Assembly: GCF_014192335.1 (NCBI RefSeq)
Contig: NZ_JACHXU010000011.1
Coordinates: 124,001-188,000, forward strand
Origin: Aporhodopirellula rubra
GTDB taxonomy: Bacteria > Planctomycetota > Planctomycetia > Pirellulales > Pirellulaceae
DNA length: 64,000 bases
Reading direction: 5' to 3'
Below are positions 34,849-44,258 of the stretch, piece after piece. The notes below the pieces were generated by a model that was given only the letters and a program-made list of their open reading frames with translations, was not told where the DNA came from and ran no database searches. Made by a program: the position numbers and the translations under genes. The stretch's first letter is position 1. Each line of letters starts with the position of its first letter.

Positions 34849-35194
34849 GTTTCTTCTGCCTGTCCACGTATTCACTTTTAGCCCGGGCATTGAGGCATTC
34901 CGTAACTCGTCGTTTCGGGTCAGAAGGTGCAGCATGGCGACGATCAGACGTTTATTAAGGAAGGGTGAAAGAGAGGGCGTGTTAGAGACAGCAAATAGAG
35001 GTGATGCAAATTGTCACACCTGAATCTCTATCGGCGCATCCTGAGCGGGGGGCGTGCGTGTTGCACCCCAACAACCAATTGTTGCAGAAAAAAAACGATG
35101 ATGCGTTTGCACAACACGAAACGCGCACTACTTTTCAGTGGTCACCCGTCGGAGGCCAACGTTTACGCTTGCTTTGCTTTTGAAGGAAACTTTG
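34849..35194. other. 346-bp divergent intergenic region
   Basis: It holds promoters for the hydrolase (minus) and the lipoprotein (plus). An A-run occurs near 35090. A good ribosome-binding site (TGAAGGAAAC) lies just before ATG 35195. No other gene is visible. Confidence 0.5.
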
Positions 35195-35830
35195 ATGACT
35201 ATCCGATCTTTCACACTTGTAACGCTCGTGATGGTCATGGGCAGCGCGACCGGTTGCGGTGGAATGCGAAACTTCTTTTTCGGACGTGGCGCTCGCTGCG
35301 GACTATGCAGTCGCATCGGTGCAGTTGGAACCGCGATCAATCCACTCGCTCCTCCACCGAACGCGGCACCCGCTGCACCAGGTTGCGGAACTCCACGCTG
35401 CGGACTGTTTGGTCGCAATCCTGCACCGACCTACGCACCACCCGTCGCGGCCGCACCGATGGCACCATGCCAAACGCCATGCCAGGACGTTTGCCAAGGC
35501 GGCTATGTCGGCAACGGTTACGTCAATAACGGTTATGTCGACGGAGGCTATTCGGTTGGCATGGCTGGCGATTGCGGTTGCGGTTCATCCTGCGGCGGTG
35601 ATTGTGGCGTGACTCAATATGGTGGCGTTCAATACGACGGCGGAGTCGTCGATCCCTACCTCGGCAGTGGCGTGTATGATGGTGGTTACAATGGTGGCGT
35701 GATTCAGGGCGATGGGTTCCAACCACGCACGTATCAATCCAATCGTTTCGATCCCGGTCAATACGATTCGCAAGGTGACCGCATCATCAGTGCCGATCCA
35801 TTGCCACCGGGTGCTAATATTTTGAACTGA
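35195..35830 (+). CDS. Gly/Tyr/Cys-rich small lipoprotein
   Basis: A 211-residue protein beginning with a lipoprotein signal ('LVTLVMVMGSATGCGGMRN', lipobox S-A-T-G-C). The mature part is low-complexity. A Cys/Pro/Ala segment ('PCQTPCQDVCQGG') leads to repeated Gly-Tyr units ('GNGYVNNGYVDGG', 'YDGGYNGG') and CGCGSSCGG clusters, with about 15 cysteines in all. The composition suggests a surface structural or adhesive protein cross-linked by disulfides. ATG 35195 follows a strong ribosome-binding site. I do not recognise the family. Confidence 0.75.
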   Translation: MTIRSFTLVTLVMVMGSATGCGGMRNFFFGRGARCGLCSRIGAVGTAINPLAPPPNAAPAAPGCGTPRCGLFGRNPAPTYAPPVAAAPMAPCQTPCQDVCQGGYVGNGYVNNGYVDGGYSVGMAGDCGCGSSCGGDCGVTQYGGVQYDGGVVDPYLGSGVYDGGYNGGVIQGDGFQPRTYQSNRFDPGQYDSQGDRIISADPLPPGANILN

Positions 35831-35964: not shown

Positions 35965-38223
35965 ATGTTCCCGCTTCGACGCTCAACGAAAGAACCGGAG
36001 ATCGATTGGCCGGCGCTGCTCGCACTTCTCGAAGACGATGATCGTCGTGCGACCATCGCTCGATTGGCGCCCACGCAGGGCCGCGAAAGTTATCTGATGG
36101 CGTTGCGGAGGATGCAGTCCTGCATCGTCGCGGAAACCCTAACCGCCGGACGCCGCCTCGATACCGCGGGACGATTGGTCGACCGACCGACGATCGCGGT
36201 CGCGGGAATGCTCAACAGCGGCAAGACCAGTTTGGTCAGTTCGTTTCTTAGCCCCGCCGGTCAGGCACGCACGCTCCGCGGAACGAGTAACCGCGAAGGC
36301 ACCCATCGTTTCGTTCTTTGGTTGCCCCAGTCCTGGCGCATTGATGTCGAATTGTGGAGTCTACTGGTTTCTCGCATCGGTGATTCTCTCGGGCATCCTC
36401 CCGAGGACCTTTCTGAAGATCCGGCCGAGGCCGCCGCACAGTACAACAACCGAACAGGTGATCAATCTCAGCTGTCGGTTGCGTTGTTAGCGACCGATCC
36501 GGCGCTCGATGACATCGGTGTCGGCTTGCTAGATTGTCCCGACATCGTTTCGGATGAGGAACTCGGGTTAGGTTCGCCCCAACAACGCAAAGATTTACTC
36601 GGCCGCGCCGCAACGTTGTGTTCGGCGTTTCTTATCGTGACCGACGCGGCATCCTCACGTGATACTACTCTCGCGGATCTGATGCGGATCGCTTCAGATT
36701 TGATGCCCGGTGTGCCACGGATGCTGGCGGTCAATAAAGTCCGACCACGTCAAACGCCTGATCAAGTCCATGAGACATTCACGCCACTGAGTCAGAAGCA
36801 CGGCGTGGCGTCAATTTACGCGGCGTACGATTATGACGTTCCCGCGAGTCGTCCGTTCATTCCCCATCGAGACGACGCGAGTTCGGATCGCCGGTTAGCG
36901 ACATCGGTTGAATCAGGTGGGGCAACGCCGGACGCGACAGAGAACGCAAAAGATGTCGAGCCATTGCCGGTGTTCTTCGAAGTCTCGCCCAACCCGGACG
37001 AGAACCCACCCGCATCGATCAATGAACAACGTTTCCTGATGTCGTTGCCGTTAAAGCTCGATCGCGGCGTGTTGTTCGCGCAATTGCATCGGGCGTTGCG
37101 AATCAATCTCGAGAAAGTCATCTGGGATCGTGGGCTGGATGCGATTCGAAAGAACGCCGACGCATCGTTCGCGAAAACACGAGAGTGCCATCGTGTGTTG
37201 TTGGACGCATCGTTGGAATTCTTCGCGCACCGCAAAGTCGGTGGCGAGGTCATGGAACTTCGGTTGCATCAGAGCGAAAGGATTCTTCGGCAACTCTCTG
37301 AATCCTTTGCAGCGACGGCGCCGTGGTACGCCCGATGGGGTGTGAGATTGAATTCGACCATTCGCCGCTTCGTTGGAGGTGCTGGTGATCTGGTCCGGTC
37401 GTTAACACCGTCGGCGTTATCGCAAAAGGCCGCCGACGATATCAAAGGTCGGTTTCGTAGTGGCGAGTATGGTGGACTGATTGCTCCGGAAGGTTTGCTC
37501 GCCGAAATCGAACGGCACGGCGGGACGGTGGTCTTGTCGCATTATCGCGATCATCAAACTGATGCGGAACCAACGCCTCGGCAAGTTAACGATTCGGGGT
37601 TGTCGCTTGAGGCACCGGGTGCTGACACGCCGCCCGTGGACACAAATTATGCGAATTTGGCGAACGATGAAGCGTTGTTGATGCCGCCGATCGAGCGGGC
37701 GGTATTGCGTTTCGAGCAAGATGATTTCACGACCCTCGATCCGAGGCGGCTCGATGAAGCGATCCGGATGATGTGGTCTGAAATTCCGATGCACAAAAAG
37801 CTCGCTCACGGGCTCACACCGCTGGCAACGATCTTGGCCGCCTTTGGTGCGGCGTTAATGATTCCGATCGATTTCGGGCACAGCTTTATCTTGGCTGCGT
37901 CGATACCCGAACTTCTCGCTGCGGCGGGCCTCGGTGCTTTGGCGGCAATGTGGGCAGGGAACCAGGGGGCTCGCGAAGTCGGCCAACAAGCCGCCCGGCA
38001 ACAGCTTTCGGACTTTCTCGCCGTGTTGTGTGATGAACTCGGTGTTGCCCGGCCGGACCCACCGATGAAGGTTCGCGTGGCCGGTCACGAGATCGCGCTG
38101 CCTGCGTCACGCATCAGCCGCAGTGAAACGAGTGGTCCGACGATGCCTGTCTATCGGGTGCGTGATGAATTCGTCAACGAACTTAACAAACTTCTGCCGC
38201 GAACATCGGGGATCAAAAAATGA
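35965..38223 (+). CDS. Dynamin/GTPase-like P-loop protein with C-terminal membrane segments
   Basis: A 752-residue protein. Walker A is 'AVAGMLNSGKTSLVSS' (Gly81-Ser89). The equivalent of G3 is 'GVGLLDCPDIVSDEE' (Asp190-Cys-Pro-Asp193), and G4 reads N-K-V-R (257-260), where N-K-x-D is usual. A long helical middle leads to two hydrophobic stretches, 'LAHGLTPLATILAAFGAA' and 'LLAAAGLGALAAMWAG' (about 610-665), then a soluble tail. This arrangement suggests a membrane-associated, dynamin-related or YcjX-like GTPase. ATG 35965 is preferred to TTG 35962. It overlaps the next GTPase by four bases (ATGA). Nucleotide specificity is uncertain. Confidence 0.75.
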   Translation: MFPLRRSTKEPEIDWPALLALLEDDDRRATIARLAPTQGRESYLMALRRMQSCIVAETLTAGRRLDTAGRLVDRPTIAVAGMLNSGKTSLVSSFLSPAGQARTLRGTSNREGTHRFVLWLPQSWRIDVELWSLLVSRIGDSLGHPPEDLSEDPAEAAAQYNNRTGDQSQLSVALLATDPALDDIGVGLLDCPDIVSDEELGLGSPQQRKDLLGRAATLCSAFLIVTDAASSRDTTLADLMRIASDLMPGVPRMLAVNKVRPRQTPDQVHETFTPLSQKHGVASIYAAYDYDVPASRPFIPHRDDASSDRRLATSVESGGATPDATENAKDVEPLPVFFEVSPNPDENPPASINEQRFLMSLPLKLDRGVLFAQLHRALRINLEKVIWDRGLDAIRKNADASFAKTRECHRVLLDASLEFFAHRKVGGEVMELRLHQSERILRQLSESFAATAPWYARWGVRLNSTIRRFVGGAGDLVRSLTPSALSQKAADDIKGRFRSGEYGGLIAPEGLLAEIERHGGTVVLSHYRDHQTDAEPTPRQVNDSGLSLEAPGADTPPVDTNYANLANDEALLMPPIERAVLRFEQDDFTTLDPRRLDEAIRMMWSEIPMHKKLAHGLTPLATILAAFGAALMIPIDFGHSFILAASIPELLAAAGLGALAAMWAGNQGAREVGQQAARQQLSDFLAVLCDELGVARPDPPMKVRVAGHEIALPASRISRSETSGPTMPVYRVRDEFVNELNKLLPRTSGIKK

Positions 38224-40232
38224 GTGTCAATGATCCTCTTCCCAAAGGTGCAAACATCAGCGGCAGTGACGCCGGCGATCAGTTCGCCCAACACGTCCAG
38301 CGCGCCGCCACCCGTGTTCTCGGCGATAGTGAAGCGGGGATCGAAATTGTCGAGCTTTGCCGCCATCACCAAGAGGCTCGGTCGATGGTGATCGCCGATC
38401 GCGCCGACAATGCGACCGTCGTAGCGATTGTAGGAACGACCGGTCAGGGGAAATCGTGGTTAGCCCGGCAACTCATTTCGGATGCAACAATCTCCGCTGC
38501 GATCCGCAGTGGAAACAACCTTGACGAAGCCACCGAGAAACTCACGTGGATCGGTCCTCGTCCTCCGTCGGATCTCGATTCGCGACACGAGCGTTATTTG
38601 GCTTGTGATGCGTCCAAGATGCAATCGATCGGCGGTCCGTATTTGATCGTCGATGCTCCCGGCGCAACGGATGATCGACGTGCGATTGCGGGCGTAGCCG
38701 AACGTGCATTGTCTCTCGCGTCGGTTTTGATACTCGTCGTCCGACGTGATCAGCTTCGCAGCCAACGTGTCACCGGTCTCGCGTCGGCCTCCGAGGGCAC
38801 GATCGTGATTCCGGTCGTGAACATGGTTGACGTCGACGAGTATTCTCCGGCGCAGTCGAATGTTGGTAGGGCTGATGTTGGTAAAGCGGAGGTGGACAAC
38901 GACTTGGTCGCCGACATCGAGACTCTCGTTTCGAGACTCCGGTCCGTCGCCCCACAGAGCAACATCGCATCAGCGGTGATGATCCGTGATTTCGAAATCG
39001 ATCCGAGAGGCGAAGATGTGATCGGTGGCGAGGCGGCTGAGCAAGTCGCCAAGGCGATCTCCGAATCGCTGCTGGAATCCGGTGGCGGCGACCATCGACG
39101 AGCGACTCGTTTGTCGGCCCTCGATGCGAGGTTCACCGCTGCGGTCGGTTCCGTTTTGACGAGCCAATTGCCGGAGTTGACCGCTGCGGTCGATCGACTT
39201 GATGCGGAAGCACGCCGGTTGCCGTCGCAAATCGCGGGCACACTGCTGGGAGGTGAAATCCCGTTGAGAGCAGCGATTCGCAGTCGTTTGCGGTTGTCGT
39301 TGTTGTCCGAGACGGCGGCGATCTGGTTTCCGTATCGGACGGTGTTGTCGGTATTGAATTTGACCCACGGAGCGTGGGATCGCGTTTTGTTATCGTTCTC
39401 CGGTTCGATCCCGTCACTCGTCGGTGCGGTTTATACCAGCGTCCAAAACATACGCGGCGGGCACGAGACGGCATTGGATCTGCGTAACGGACTGCGGCAG
39501 CGTGCCTCGACCGCGGTGGCCGAACGCCTCGGCCCGATGGCATCGCGATTTCGTCGCGAATTGCGTGGGCTGCAACGTTCCGGTGCCACCCTCGGCGACG
39601 CAACCACAGATGACGATTCACCGGTCGCGACGCTCGCGGGCGTCGACGCCTTGCAGGAAGGATCGCAAGCAGCGTTTGATGAAACGATCGAGCGAGAGAG
39701 CGTCTCGGGCGCGTTCGCATTTGTATCTGGCTTGATCGGTACCGCAATCTTTTGGGCGTTGATGGCAGGCCCTCTGGTCGCGCTTTACCGAGGTTACCTC
39801 GACGCGAGTTTCATCGCGATTGGTGACGTCACGGGTGTCTATGAGTCGAGCGGATCAGTGTCACCAGCAGAGGCAACGGACGCTGTCGCAACGTCAACGG
39901 CAACACACACGAACGATTGGTTGGAAAAGTTTCCGCATCCGAGTGCTGGGATGTTGTTGACGAGTGTGTTGTTGTCTCTGTTGCCGATGGCCATTTTTTC
40001 CATGATCGTGTTGTCGATCTGTCAGGGTCGCCGACGTATTGAAAAGATCGCTCGCTCCTTGAGGAATCAACATGACACGATGATTGACAAGCTGCAACGT
40101 GATGGTGTGTTGCGTCTGCGTTGGAGTGATCCGGTTTTGGCCGATGCGGAGTTTCTGTTGTCGATCGGGCGGATGGCGAAGTCATCCAATCATCAAGAGT
40201 CGCCCGCGATCACGCCGGGGGATCCTAGCTAA
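38220..40232 (+). CDS. Second membrane-linked P-loop GTPase
   Basis: A 670-residue protein. Walker A is 'IVGTTGQGKSWLARQL' (Gly72-Ser79), G3 is 'YLIVDAPGATDDR' (Asp145-Ala-Pro-Gly148), and G4 is 'VVNMVDVDE' (Asn201-Met-Val-Asp204); all sit at normal G-domain spacing. A helical region follows, then two hydrophobic segments near 505-545 ('LIGTAIFWALMAGPLVALYR') and 585-612 ('LLTSVLLSLLPMAIFSMIV'). It is not a close copy of the preceding GTPase. Its ATG overlaps the upstream stop (ATGA) and its TAA overlaps the ExbB-like gene's ATG (TAATG). Confidence 0.78.
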   Translation: MSVNDPLPKGANISGSDAGDQFAQHVQRAATRVLGDSEAGIEIVELCRHHQEARSMVIADRADNATVVAIVGTTGQGKSWLARQLISDATISAAIRSGNNLDEATEKLTWIGPRPPSDLDSRHERYLACDASKMQSIGGPYLIVDAPGATDDRRAIAGVAERALSLASVLILVVRRDQLRSQRVTGLASASEGTIVIPVVNMVDVDEYSPAQSNVGRADVGKAEVDNDLVADIETLVSRLRSVAPQSNIASAVMIRDFEIDPRGEDVIGGEAAEQVAKAISESLLESGGGDHRRATRLSALDARFTAAVGSVLTSQLPELTAAVDRLDAEARRLPSQIAGTLLGGEIPLRAAIRSRLRLSLLSETAAIWFPYRTVLSVLNLTHGAWDRVLLSFSGSIPSLVGAVYTSVQNIRGGHETALDLRNGLRQRASTAVAERLGPMASRFRRELRGLQRSGATLGDATTDDDSPVATLAGVDALQEGSQAAFDETIERESVSGAFAFVSGLIGTAIFWALMAGPLVALYRGYLDASFIAIGDVTGVYESSGSVSPAEATDAVATSTATHTNDWLEKFPHPSAGMLLTSVLLSLLPMAIFSMIVLSICQGRRRIEKIARSLRNQHDTMIDKLQRDGVLRLRWSDPVLADAEFLLSIGRMAKSSNHQESPAITPGDPS

Positions 40233-41092
40233 TGCGGTTCGTTACCGAATCATTGTTGTTCTCGCAAACCAACACGACGCCGCCGCCACCGGCGACCGCG
40301 TCGATGTGGGAAATCGTAACCAGCGGCGGATGGCCCGGTCTGGTCATCCTGTTGGTATTGGTCTCGCTCAGTATCGCGGCTGTGTATTTGGTGATCGATC
40401 AGTTTCTCTCGCTCCGTCGTGCCGACATTCTTCCCGATGGTTTGGCAAACGAAGTCGCCTCGGCACTGCGTGAATCCCGTTGGGCGGACGCGGAGTCGGC
40501 GCTGCGGAATCGTCCGAGTGTGTTGGCGGGAGTGATCTCGTTGGCGCTTTCGAACCGTGAATTCGGATGGTCGGAGATGGAAAAATCGGTCGAGGATTCT
40601 CTCGTCGATCGTTCGGCTCAAATGCATCGACGGATCGATTATCTGTCAATGATCGCCAACTTGTCTCCCATGGTCGGGCTGCTCGGAACGGTAACAGGCA
40701 TGATTTTCGCCTTTCGTCAGGTCGCCGCGACGCGGGGAGCGGCGGGCGCCGGAGACCTTGCCGAAGGGATTTACCAGGCTCTCGTAACGACCGTCGGTGG
40801 ACTCATTGTCGCGATTCCAGCATTGGCGGCCTCGGGGATCCTACGGGCCCGCGTCGATGAATTATTATCAGAGGTCACGCGGCAAACCGAACGAGCGCTC
40901 TCACCGCTCCGGCGACGAACTTCGCCCGGAAACGCCACCGCGAGTCCGACGAGCCGGATCGTTCCGGTCGCTCCGGCGCAAATGAAAGGGACCAAAATCA
41001 GCTCGCCTGATCAAGCCGCCGCGCCGCCTCCGGGCGTTCCTTCCGATTCTCAACCCGTCATTAATCCTCGCACCCGATCACGCAAACAATAA
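40232..41092 (+). CDS. TolQ/ExbB/MotA-like proton-channel protein
   Basis: A 286-residue inner-membrane protein with three transmembrane segments at about 34-58 ('PGLVILLVLVSLSIAAVYLV'), 138-165 and 178-205. The second and third pair contains the family core 'SPMVGLLGTVTGMIFAFRQV' and 'GIYQALVTTVGGLIVAIPAL'. ExbB/TolQ proteins form pentameric channels with ExbD/TolR to turn proton flow into force. No ExbD/TolR gene follows. The cytosolic C-terminal tail (about 80 residues, Pro/Ser/Thr-rich) is longer than in small ExbB proteins. Start and stop are each joined to neighbours by TAATG, so it is translated with the two GTPases. Confidence 0.88.
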   Translation: MRFVTESLLFSQTNTTPPPPATASMWEIVTSGGWPGLVILLVLVSLSIAAVYLVIDQFLSLRRADILPDGLANEVASALRESRWADAESALRNRPSVLAGVISLALSNREFGWSEMEKSVEDSLVDRSAQMHRRIDYLSMIANLSPMVGLLGTVTGMIFAFRQVAATRGAAGAGDLAEGIYQALVTTVGGLIVAIPALAASGILRARVDELLSEVTRQTERALSPLRRRTSPGNATASPTSRIVPVAPAQMKGTKISSPDQAAAPPPGVPSDSQPVINPRTRSRKQ

Positions 41093-41883
41093 TGAATGGA
41101 TTCTTCTGTGTTCCGATGAAAGCCTGCGAGCGATTCGAAATTGGCAAACTGGTTTTCGCGGGCTTGATGGTTCTCGTGACGCTGTGCGGCACCGTGGGAG
41201 CACAATCTCCTTCAATTGATTCACGCGCGAACGAGTCACCCAGTGCAGACGAACCCGGGGTGGGACCACCCGCGGCCGTCTCACCGGTGTTGACGCAATC
41301 GTCCGTACCCTCCGAATCGCCGACACCGCCCTCGCAACCTGCCGAGATTCCTGCTTCCGGCGATGTTCCACTTTCAGATATTCCTGAACCGATTTCACCG
41401 ACGCCCGATCCTGACGCGGCGGAAATGATACTGAAGACGTTGAAAGGTGAGACGCCGCCCGCGGCACCCGGCGTGCTCAGCGACGTGCTCGATGTCATTC
41501 GCTCGCAGGGCAGTGTCCTGGACGGATCGAGTTTGGATATTGACGTGAACGCACCGTTAATCGAACCTCCGGTAGCCTCGCGCGGGGCATCCGATTTCGC
41601 ACCGTCAAGTTTGTATGGTTCGCCACCAACCCAAACGGCATCTTCCTTCGTAGAGACGGCCGAGTCCCTTTTGCGTTCGGCGAGGATGCTCGAGTCGCTC
41701 GCCCCGATGCTCGAGGTGCCGGCCGGTCGCGAACACGTACCCGCCGGTCGCGAACCAATCCTGCCTTCACACTCCTTTCGCCACGAATCGGTGCACTCCG
41801 TTACCGAACTCGTCCGCCGCATGAGACTCCAAGCGACCCAGTTGTTGTTGCGTGAGTTCCCCGATGCGATCCAGCCCCGATAA
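41092..41883 (+). CDS. Unknown secreted protein in the GTPase-ExbB operon
   Basis: A 263-residue protein with a signal-like segment at about residues 16-37 ('IGKLVFAGLMVLVTLCGTVG') and a mature part rich in Pro, Ser and Ala, probably unstructured to about residue 110. A C-terminal helical region ends 'TELVRRMRLQATQLLLREF', after duplicated 'VPAGRE' units. It has no ExbD/TolR membrane-helix-plus-domain layout. It starts at ATG 41092 by TAATG overlap and ends 8 bp before the cytochrome. It may be the periplasmic partner of the channel, but this is inference. Confidence 0.65.
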   Translation: MNGFFCVPMKACERFEIGKLVFAGLMVLVTLCGTVGAQSPSIDSRANESPSADEPGVGPPAAVSPVLTQSSVPSESPTPPSQPAEIPASGDVPLSDIPEPISPTPDPDAAEMILKTLKGETPPAAPGVLSDVLDVIRSQGSVLDGSSLDIDVNAPLIEPPVASRGASDFAPSSLYGSPPTQTASSFVETAESLLRSARMLESLAPMLEVPAGREHVPAGREPILPSHSFRHESVHSVTELVRRMRLQATQLLLREFPDAIQPR

Positions 41884-41891
41884 CAGCGTTC

Positions 41892-44258
41892 ATGCCCAAA
41901 CATTCTTCCCGATCCATTTTCACTCGTCGTCCTTGGACTGTGGCCGCGGTTGCCGTCGGTGTCCTCATCGCGGGCGGTGTGATGGCGGACTACTTTCGCG
42001 GGTTGCCCGCCGACGCTGTTGCGACGTACGTTGGACGCGAGGCGTGCGTGCAGTGTCACGAAACGGAGGTCCATGCGTTCACGGGATCGCATCACGACCT
42101 TGCGATGGATATCGCGACTGACGAAACGGTGCTCGGCGATTTCAATGATGTCACGTTTGTGAACGATGGCATCGAAAGTCGTCTGTATCGCGACGGCGAA
42201 AAGTTCATGGTGTACACGGAAGGCCCGACGGGCGAGATGGAGAATTTCGAGGTCAAGTATGTCTTTGGCGTCGACCCGCTTCAGCAATACATGGTGGAGT
42301 TTGATCGCGACGAAAATGCCGCCGAGGACGAAGTCGGTCGCGTGCAAGTCTTGAGAATCAGTTGGGATGTCAATCGTAAGGAGTGGTTCTATCTACGTCC
42401 GCCGGATGTGAGTGAAAAACTCAAACCAGGCGACCCGTTGCACTGGACCGGTATCGCCCAACGTTGGCAAACGATGTGTGCCGAATGTCACAGCACCGAC
42501 CTCAAACGCAATTTTGATGTCGCGACTCAACGTTATCACACCACGTTTTCGGAGATCGACGTCAGTTGTGAGGCGTGTCATGGACCGGCGAGTCTGCACG
42601 TGGAGTTAGCGAACAGTAACTCACTCTTCTGGGATCGTCATCGTGGATTCGCGCTCGTTAATCTCAAAACAGAAGATTCCGCACCGCAAATCGAAACGTG
42701 TGCGCCATGTCATAGTCGGCGTGGTGTCCTCGACGGAAAAATGAGCCCCGGTGCGTCTTATACCGATCATTACAATCTCGAACTGCTGCGCAGCGATACC
42801 TACCACGACGACGGACAAATCAAAGACGAAGTCTACGTTTATGGTTCGTTTGTCCAGAGCAAGATGTATCACCAAGGGATTCGGTGCACCGATTGTCACG
42901 ACCCTCATTCGCTCGAACTCAAACATCCTGGTAATGAGACCTGTACCTCGTGTCATCAACACGCGGCCGGAAAATACGATGTCCCGTCGCACCATCATCA
43001 TGCCGTCGGTACCGAAGGGGCGATGTGTGTGAATTGCCACATGCCACATACGACGTACATGGCCGTTGACCCTCGTCGTGATCACAGTTTCCGCATCCCG
43101 CGTCCCGATCTCTCGGTCGAACTGAACACGCCGAACGCGTGCAGCGGTTGTCATGTCGAGGACCGGCGCAAAACACTGCCCGCAGAAGTTTCCGATGAAC
43201 TGAAGCTCTATCAGGATTGGTTGCTCGCCGCGGCGCAAGGTAATGAATCGGTTGCGAAGGTGATTGCCGAGACGAACCAGTGGTGCGACGACGCGTGCGA
43301 CAAGTGGTATGGCGATCAACGATTGAAACCGCCGCACTTCGCAGAGGCACTCGCCCCACTCAGAGCAGGCGATCGGTCGGGCGTCAGCAAGACATTACGT
43401 TTGATCGCCGGTTCGAGTACGCCTGCCAAGGACGCACTCACGCCTGTGATCGCTCGCGCCACCGCGTTGGACGAATTGGTGATGCAAGGTCATGGCGAAG
43501 CCGCCAAGGCGGCCCAGGTGTTGATAGCGGAGGGAGAACAGACTCCGGGGTCTGTCCATCCGATCCTTTTGGCGACGGCGGCCCGTGCGATCGGGATGCT
43601 CGGCGGAGGCGGGGCGATCGATCCGGGGGACGTTCAAAAGAAACTGTATCCGCTGATTTCGCATTCATCGCGTCTCGTGCGTAGCGAAGCGGCGCGTGGG
43701 ATCGTCAATGGTGGTGCCTATCAAAGAGTTTCGGGACAAAAACGCAAAAATCTCGATCGCGTGCTCGACGATGTGAAAGACGAATTGATGTATGCGTCCG
43801 ATCGTGCCGGTGCGCACATGGGATGGGCGATGTTGAGCGAACAACGGGCCCAATGGGCGGACGCGATCCGCGCTTATAGCAACGCCATGCGAGTCGAACC
43901 CGGCACTACGGGGCCACGCACCAATTTGGCGGCACTACTCGATCGATTGATCGAAATGTCCCATCAAGACAATTCGGTAATGGAGGTTCTGCAAGCCGTC
44001 GGGGGGGATGAAGGGGTCGCGGGCGCGCAGAAGAAGATCGATCAGTTGCGACGCGAGGAACTCCCGCTTCTCGCCCGTGATGCCGCACTCGCGCCGGGGA
44101 TTGCTGACCTACAGTACCGGTACGGTCTCGCGTTGTATTTGTCAGGTGATTTGCCAAATGCCAGAAAGCAATTACAACGGGCTGCAGAGCTGGCTCCTGA
44201 TGTTGAGCTTTTTAGTACAGCATTAAGAATGCTCGACGAACATATGAAGAATCAGTAG
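41892..44258 (+). CDS. Octahaem cytochrome c fused to a helical repeat domain
   Basis: A 788-residue secreted electron-transfer protein. An N-terminal membrane helix or signal (about 14-35) precedes eight haem c sites, C-x-x-C-H, starting at residues 52, 196, 226, 270, 332, 351, 379 and 417. The histidine-rich 'YDVPSHHHHAVG' lies between the sixth and seventh. After about residue 430 the protein is an all-helical HEAT/TPR-like domain ('GWAMLSEQRAQWADAIRAYS'). Related multihaem proteins act in nitrogen, sulfur or extracellular electron transfer, but no exact subfamily is clear. It follows the GTPase-ExbB operon by 8 bp. Confidence 0.9.
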   Translation: MPKHSSRSIFTRRPWTVAAVAVGVLIAGGVMADYFRGLPADAVATYVGREACVQCHETEVHAFTGSHHDLAMDIATDETVLGDFNDVTFVNDGIESRLYRDGEKFMVYTEGPTGEMENFEVKYVFGVDPLQQYMVEFDRDENAAEDEVGRVQVLRISWDVNRKEWFYLRPPDVSEKLKPGDPLHWTGIAQRWQTMCAECHSTDLKRNFDVATQRYHTTFSEIDVSCEACHGPASLHVELANSNSLFWDRHRGFALVNLKTEDSAPQIETCAPCHSRRGVLDGKMSPGASYTDHYNLELLRSDTYHDDGQIKDEVYVYGSFVQSKMYHQGIRCTDCHDPHSLELKHPGNETCTSCHQHAAGKYDVPSHHHHAVGTEGAMCVNCHMPHTTYMAVDPRRDHSFRIPRPDLSVELNTPNACSGCHVEDRRKTLPAEVSDELKLYQDWLLAAAQGNESVAKVIAETNQWCDDACDKWYGDQRLKPPHFAEALAPLRAGDRSGVSKTLRLIAGSSTPAKDALTPVIARATALDELVMQGHGEAAKAAQVLIAEGEQTPGSVHPILLATAARAIGMLGGGGAIDPGDVQKKLYPLISHSSRLVRSEAARGIVNGGAYQRVSGQKRKNLDRVLDDVKDELMYASDRAGAHMGWAMLSEQRAQWADAIRAYSNAMRVEPGTTGPRTNLAALLDRLIEMSHQDNSVMEVLQAVGGDEGVAGAQKKIDQLRREELPLLARDAALAPGIADLQYRYGLALYLSGDLPNARKQLQRAAELAPDVELFSTALRMLDEHMKNQ

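Follow-up and report, generated by a model that had tools for sequence, protein, structure and literature searches.

A Candidate Dynamin-Like Protein Pair with an ExbB-Like Channel Neighbour in Aporhodopirellula rubra and the Pirellulaceae

Introduction

What do two different P-loop proteins, encoded by overlapping genes next to a channel gene in the planctomycete Aporhodopirellula rubra, do in the cell, and which of their neighbours belong with them? The locus lies in a stretch of 64,000 nucleotides (the window; positions 124,001 to 188,000 of contig NZ_JACHXU010000011.1, assembly GCF_014192335.1), which sits in a 282-kb contig of a genome of 8.5 Mb. Five consecutive genes on the forward strand are labelled here A to E. 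A and B encode the two P-loop proteins, C an ExbB/TolQ-like channel, D a secreted protein, and E an octahaem cytochrome. A preliminary description of the window regarded A to D as a candidate for an undescribed membrane system, in which two GTPases would drive membrane remodelling or transport with energy from the channel, perhaps tied to envelope electron flow. The arrangement itself is real, as coordinates and junctions were confirmed: the sequence reads ATGA at the A/B junction and TAATG at both B/C and C/D, and E begins 8 bp after D.

The answer proposed is that A and B are a divergent dynamin-like pair predicted to serve inner-membrane remodelling, to which an ExbB-like channel would have been added in one sub-branch of the family. 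The probability of this reading is estimated at about 0.5.

Predicted Folds and Sequence Features of A and B

Gene A occupies positions 35965..38223 of the window (752 amino acids) and gene B positions 38220..40232 (670 amino acids), both on the forward strand, and a dynamin/mitofusin-like fold is predicted for each product. Single-chain AlphaFold2 models were obtained from 16-row alignments, with a predicted local distance difference test score (pLDDT) of 73.8 for A and 74.1 for B. When the models were compared with the PDB by Foldseek, all 15 chains matching A at E ≤ 0.001 were dynamin-superfamily proteins, as were 46 of the 48 matching B, the other two being an eIF5B complex and HflXr (counts made from the names shown). 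The dynamin-superfamily matches include BDLP, LeoA, the Campylobacter pair, IniA, Fzo1, mitofusins, OPA1, EHD, and dynamin. VIA-align ranks Fzo1 first for both models, and its alignments span residues 1-749 of A (with 9kfd) and 13-658 of B (with 9kff). The models consist of a nucleotide domain and a helical neck/trunk contributed by both sides of that domain (pLDDT 74), and parts of their C-terminal halves are uncertain. The predicted fold of A and B agrees with the membrane-remodelling dynamin type suggested earlier.

The P-loops read GMLNSGKTS in A and GTTGQGKSW in B. Walker A is retained in nearly all aligned members of both families: the P-loop lysine column holds K in 60 of the 62 aligned A sequences (the other two have gaps) and in 73 of the 75 aligned B sequences, where the exceptions are a homologue without P-loop in locus L159 and a truncated one in L229. 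According to the hydropathy of the window proteins, both carry a membrane-binding hydrophobic segment. In A it is a C-terminal hairpin at about residues 613-648 (614-649 when numbered from the upstream TTG, which adds one to the count from ATG), and in B it consists of predicted transmembrane segments at 493-524 and 574-605. The G1-G4 set of GTP-binding motifs is incomplete in both, with G1 kept. B also keeps G3 in the form DxPG (VDAPG in the window) and has a family-wide GAWDR motif at residues 384-388. At G4, all 62 A sequences have N and at least 61 of them lack Asp; among the 75 B sequences, 69 show N or T, K or D is not conserved, and the window protein reads NMVD.

Family databases capture these proteins poorly. 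A gave nothing in Pfam at E ≤ 1, and B gave a marginal match to the broad family MMR_HSR1 (22.2 bits against a cut-off of 21.9). No match above any NCBIfam cut-off was obtained for A, B, C, or D. A search of PDB sequences with A and B profiles returned nothing convincing (best E 0.013 and 0.07, respectively), and the comparison of the A profile with the B profile was not significant.

Side-by-side dynamin-like pairs are already known in bacteria, as reported in sections of two papers (PMC6104087, PMC4159319). Like Campylobacter Cj-DLP1/2, BDLP1/2, LeoA/LeoBC, IniA/IniC, and DynA/DynB, A and B have adjacent genes and are distinct, large P-loop proteins with membrane-interacting segments, and their predicted folds find members of this group among the best structures. 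Because such pairs are known, the expression "undescribed system" is too strong for the A/B core, which is a sequence-divergent variant of a known bacterial kind. What is unusual is the ExbB neighbour: a full-text search of one literature collection found no paper combining dynamin-like proteins with ExbB. Mitofusins and Fzo1 are the top VIA matches of both models, with alignments that take in the region ahead of the nucleotide domain as well as the C-terminal end of the chain; A and B differ from them in that identity is about 10% and in being bacterial proteins with two distinct subunits. In the DO-GTPase/GAP1 systems, the GTPases often occur in two copies near membranes, planctomycetes included, according to passages of PMC7159879. 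The same passages report a conserved Walker B glutamate, whereas A and B lack it (DCPD and DAPG) and neither matches the DO-GTPase family of Pfam.

Conservation of the Locus and Its Core

In genome searches with alignment queries, the best few first-look candidates per genome were scored, and absence is to be read as "not found". Among 60 relatives, A was found in 19 and B in the identical 19. When presence was counted at E ≤ 1e-3 in 241 genomes of the Pirellulaceae, A occurred in 115, B in 114, and both in 111, with some genomes carrying A and B apart. Four genomes have A only (G437, G498, G529, and G510, the last with a short, weak match) and three have B only (G358, G427, and G506); five of these seven are less than 90% complete. 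Across 294 genomes of the phylum, full-length matches to A and B were confined to the own genome and one more family member (G331), and the matches in G100 (E 5e-4) and G148 (E 7e-4), limited to short stretches, were not counted. Two B peptide patterns, scanned against named genomes, gave 68 loci, all with planctomycete titles. The two P-loop proteins thus belong together across the family.

After removal of six copies, 75 B loci were available, 72 with at least 1.5 kb upstream and 72 with at least 0.9 kb downstream. A lies directly upstream of B in 58 of 72. Under the filter used, C lies directly downstream of B in 34 of 72, with a 4-bp overlap in 15 of these; C is also right behind B, outside the filter, in L197, where B runs in two frames, and in L194, where the frames overlap. 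Within the genus, the order A-B-C was seen in 13 of 13 genomes, followed by E in 12 (not G010). Loci with the B-C link bear the titles Rhodopirellula, Neorhodopirellula, Aporhodopirellula, Rubripirellula, Stieleria, and Roseiconus. The genes are therefore not neighbours in this strain alone, since adjacency of A, B, and C extends across genera, and the proposed link to an ExbB-like channel is borne out as gene adjacency from Rhodopirellula to Roseiconus.

Gene D (41092..41883, forward strand, 263 amino acids) encodes a secreted protein with a single N-terminal, signal-like hydrophobic segment and no Pfam match. Its conserved motif GSVLDGS was found in ten loci, namely, in L185 and in all but one of the ten genus loci examined. 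Gene E (41892..44258, forward strand, 788 amino acids) encodes an octahaem cytochrome with eight CXXCH motifs, for which Pfam reports multihaem cytochrome and TPR domains. Strong, near full-length matches to E occur in genomes without A/B (e.g., G028, G036, G026, and G020), and E is not adjacent to A/B in G010, G018, G023, and G025. Because C and D are narrower in conservation and E is independent, A and B form the core, C is a branch-specific partner, D is narrow and nearly genus-limited, and E is a neighbour outside the system. All five genes as one system were rejected on the same grounds. The idea of four coupled genes as one conserved set does not hold either, given the narrow range of D and the position of C behind B in 34 of 72 loci, and a tie to envelope electron flow is not supported, given the independence of E.

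Two further candidates were discarded. A gene for a third GTPase after B was present in four loci (L210, L211, L221, and L232), and the three tested were TrmE_N/MnmE-like. Where A is missing upstream of B, genes of 436 and 242 amino acids suggested a split A; in L198, the one locus tested, they correspond to a CNNM/CBS protein and a 3-keto-disaccharide hydrolase.

On the 5′ side of A, positions 35138-35830 of the window encode a 230-amino-acid protein rich in Gly, Tyr, and Asn, and relatives are equally placed in four other genus loci. Fifteen loci other than the ten of the genus (e.g., L152:5859-8159) have a Ser/Thr-kinase-type gene 5′ of A and in the same orientation, at a median distance of -10 bp from A (Pfam was run on one member).

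The Channel Gene

Gene C (40232..41092, forward strand, 286 amino acids) encodes a channel subunit of the ExbB/TolQ/MotA family, with a Pfam match to PF01618 (MotA_ExbB) of 88.1 bits against a cut-off of 22.9 (E 5e-25). This domain is shared with TolQ and ExbB of the Tol-Pal and TonB systems; unlike them, C stays below the TolQ/ExbB equivalog cut-offs of NCBIfam and has no neighbouring ExbD. As to ZorA of the Zorya system, C misses the model (E 0.019-0.024 over 67-75 residues).

Relatives of C away from A/B were found in 23 loci, in other operons, at 42-55% identity, and ExbD was detected in 14 of them. The two operons that were annotated hold a vWA- and/or TPR-type gene, ExbB, and ExbD, with a second ExbD in one. 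Conversely, when 86 A/B loci were scanned with an ExbD model built from sequences of six of those 14 loci and the own ExbD pair, no ExbD came up in any of them. The own genome has 10 ExbB-family and 10 ExbD matches. An orphan tandem ExbD pair lies on its contig C4 (L299:9013-9959), which has no ExbB-family match. This pair is the best own-genome match of the relatives' ExbD1 in 6 of 6 cases and of ExbD2 in 4 of 6, within a comparison limited to the own-genome loci fetched (the L126 reading frame gave no match, and for L161 another ExbD was better). It comes after a NUDIX gene. C, in turn, is the best own-genome match of the relatives' ExbB in 4 of 4.

The simplest reading of this synteny is that, in one sub-branch, C left an ExbB-ExbD-ExbD operon to become a neighbour of A-B. 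The longest branch of the C tree is the one leading to the genus. Two genomes, G035 and G018, carry A/B, yet their C relative is still near ExbD.

A Pair of DUF697 GTPases Nearly Exclusive with A/B

In many genomes without A/B, two other GTPase genes are adjacent (L337:4481-7376), here called P (about 520 amino acids, with two N-terminal transmembrane segments) and Q (about 455 amino acids). Pfam, run on one such pair, reports DUF697 (PF05128) alongside a GTPase domain in P and Q alike; neither A nor B matched PF05128. When Q was counted at E ≤ 1e-20 and A or B at E ≤ 1e-3, leaving out the A match of G510 (E 8e-4, in a reading frame that carries another P-loop), Q was present in 97 of the 241 family genomes, A or B in 117, both in 2 (G033 and G408), and neither in 29. 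The Fisher P-value of this exclusion is 6e-38 when genomes are counted and 7e-7 when genera are counted, with no correction for kinship. The G408 assembly is 78% complete, so that G033 is the sole genome above 90% completeness with both A/B and Q. Its B has no P-loop, and A-B is present twice, the copies scoring equally and lying 6,855 bp from each other (L159:6306-17008), which represents either a tandem duplication or an assembly artefact.

The exclusion may stem from few events. On the C tree, the A/B label needs two changes, and well-supported branches force only one. Thus, perhaps a single switch occurred, and replacement of one pair by the other is suggested rather than shown. A common locus was sought by synteny as well, and scattered similar genes were found with no shared position recognised. 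Like A/B, P and Q are adjacent membrane GTPase genes of the same family of bacteria, and B matches them remotely by profile: with Q at 87.7% probability (P-value 3.4e-6, 192 columns, B profile columns 27-242, including sequence before the nucleotide domain) and with P at 84%. A gave no significant match to P or Q (28% and 18%). The DUF697 pair differs from A/B in having PF05128 and a conserved consensus NKxD, in being shorter, and in the N-terminal transmembrane segments of P.

Other clusters of P-loop genes occur in these bacteria. A further adjacent GTPase pair is present in some A/B genomes (L344:4645-7436, L345:4937-7884, and L343:2780-5556), with the P-loops GKTGSGKSS and GQVKAGKSSL in L344. 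G033 has clusters of three adjacent P-loop genes (L340:4377-8413 and L341:3810-7912), and two of the three in L340 match Dynamin_N over the cut-off. Adjacent dynamin-like genes with Dynamin_N matches were also seen in G404 (L346:880-10283) and G008 (L347:1923-5564), which both carry A/B too; G008 belongs to the genus of the window.

Proposed Mechanism and Alternative Explanations

On the models, A and B would each join a nucleotide domain with its P-loop to a helical neck/trunk formed by the flanking parts of the chain and to a hydrophobic hairpin, close to the C-terminus, that inserts into the membrane. By analogy with known pairs, the two most likely form a hetero-oligomer at the cytoplasmic face of the inner membrane, where nucleotide binding and hydrolysis would enable them to tether or reshape it. 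Nucleotide-driven tethering or reshaping of membranes is described for the Campylobacter pair in parts of PMC6104087, and the same kind of action is proposed for tandem bacterial dynamins in general in parts of PMC4159319. In the sub-branch with Rhodopirellula, Rubripirellula, Stieleria, and others, C would have moved from its ExbD genes to the A-B operon. There its partner is probably still the orphan ExbD pair encoded elsewhere, and C may place or energise the A/B pair at the envelope. That C and the C4 ExbD pair would let A/B draw on the proton-motive force is speculative. It is quite improbable that A/B is a hetero-oligomeric dynamin-like machine of the inner membrane coupled to the proton-motive force in this way, its remodelling driven or positioned by an ExbB/ExbD motor, perhaps with a role at the bud neck or in membrane invagination in these FtsZ-lacking bacteria.

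Several observations weigh against a dynamin-like pair. Dynamin_N (PF00350) is matched by neither A nor B at E ≤ 1. In A, DCPD stands at the site of the expected DxxG; both proteins have a degenerate G4, with NKxD kept in neither family, and the B homologue in L159 has lost its P-loop. These motifs, like the ExbB gene that follows in some loci, set A/B apart from the established dynamin-like pairs. The models are middling (pLDDT 74; predicted template modelling scores 0.64 and 0.57), and query-normalised template modelling (TM) scores from Foldseek do not exceed 0.32. Profiles of planctomycete dynamin-like proteins, small ones of three and two sequences that match each other and DUF697 GTPases, gave no significant match with A (10 and 40% probability) or B (7 and 5%), and B lies nearer the DUF697 GTPases by profile (Q 88%, P 84%). 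The co-occurrence of A and B follows genera and may therefore be inherited rather than repeatedly selected. Given the low TM-scores and the uncertain C-terminal parts, the structural comparison supports a dynamin-like way of working at the level of the fold and is not proof of membership. Of the earlier designation of both proteins as GTPases, the P-loops and hydrophobic segments stand; the name itself is an assumption because of the DCPD of A and the lack of NKxD in either family, and with guanine specificity (G4) degenerate in both, GTP as the nucleotide is not established.

The near exclusion of A/B and Q (together in just 2 of 241 genomes), the adjacency of P and Q with PF05128 in both members of the pair tested, and the profile matches of B to Q and P would also fit a far-diverged A/B that replaced, or derives from, the DUF697 pair and acts as membrane nucleotide switches of that type, without remodelling. 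This is rather unlikely, as A and B lack PF05128, A resembles neither P nor Q by profile and has no counterpart of the N-terminal transmembrane segments of P, no flanking gene pointing to a common locus was recognised, and the exclusivity may go back to one ancestral switch. A different role, in which A/B would be a nucleotide switch that gates or positions a motor of C and ExbD and so regulates an energy-transducing channel, has an analogy in RdcA, a dynamin-like GTPase that regulates a membrane diguanylate cyclase according to portions of PMC6510439. The place of C right after B, at times overlapping it, agrees with this, as do the apparent departure of C from its ExbD genes and the long genus branch of its tree. 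However, the adjacency filter is passed by no more than 34 of 72 loci (of the other 38, L194 and L197 do have C right behind B), so that in about half of the loci A/B has no adjoining C, and in G035 and G018 the C relative sits near ExbD. It follows that C is not needed for A/B, and a regulator of the channel is clearly unlikely. That the operon is an accessory system for conflict or defence, or that its genes are neighbours by chance, is highly improbable: PADLOC returned nothing beyond weak matches (B to LeoA, E 0.006; C to ZorA, E 0.019), and both ideas sit badly with the constant A-B-C order in the genus and the joint presence of A and B in 111 family genomes. The divergent dynamin-like pair stands as the proposed reading of A and B.

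Significance for Planctomycetes

Planctomycetes bud and have a division cluster without ftsZ, and the mechanism of budding was stated as unknown in 2014, in sections of PMC4164004. Budding and the absence of ftsZ are context for A/B, not evidence. About half of the Pirellulaceae genomes sampled retain A/B, with A unrecognised by Pfam and B marginally recognised, and the predicted folds make the pair a concrete candidate for membrane remodelling in planctomycetes. The near mutual exclusion suggests that two unlike pairs, A/B and P/Q, may do the same job in this family.
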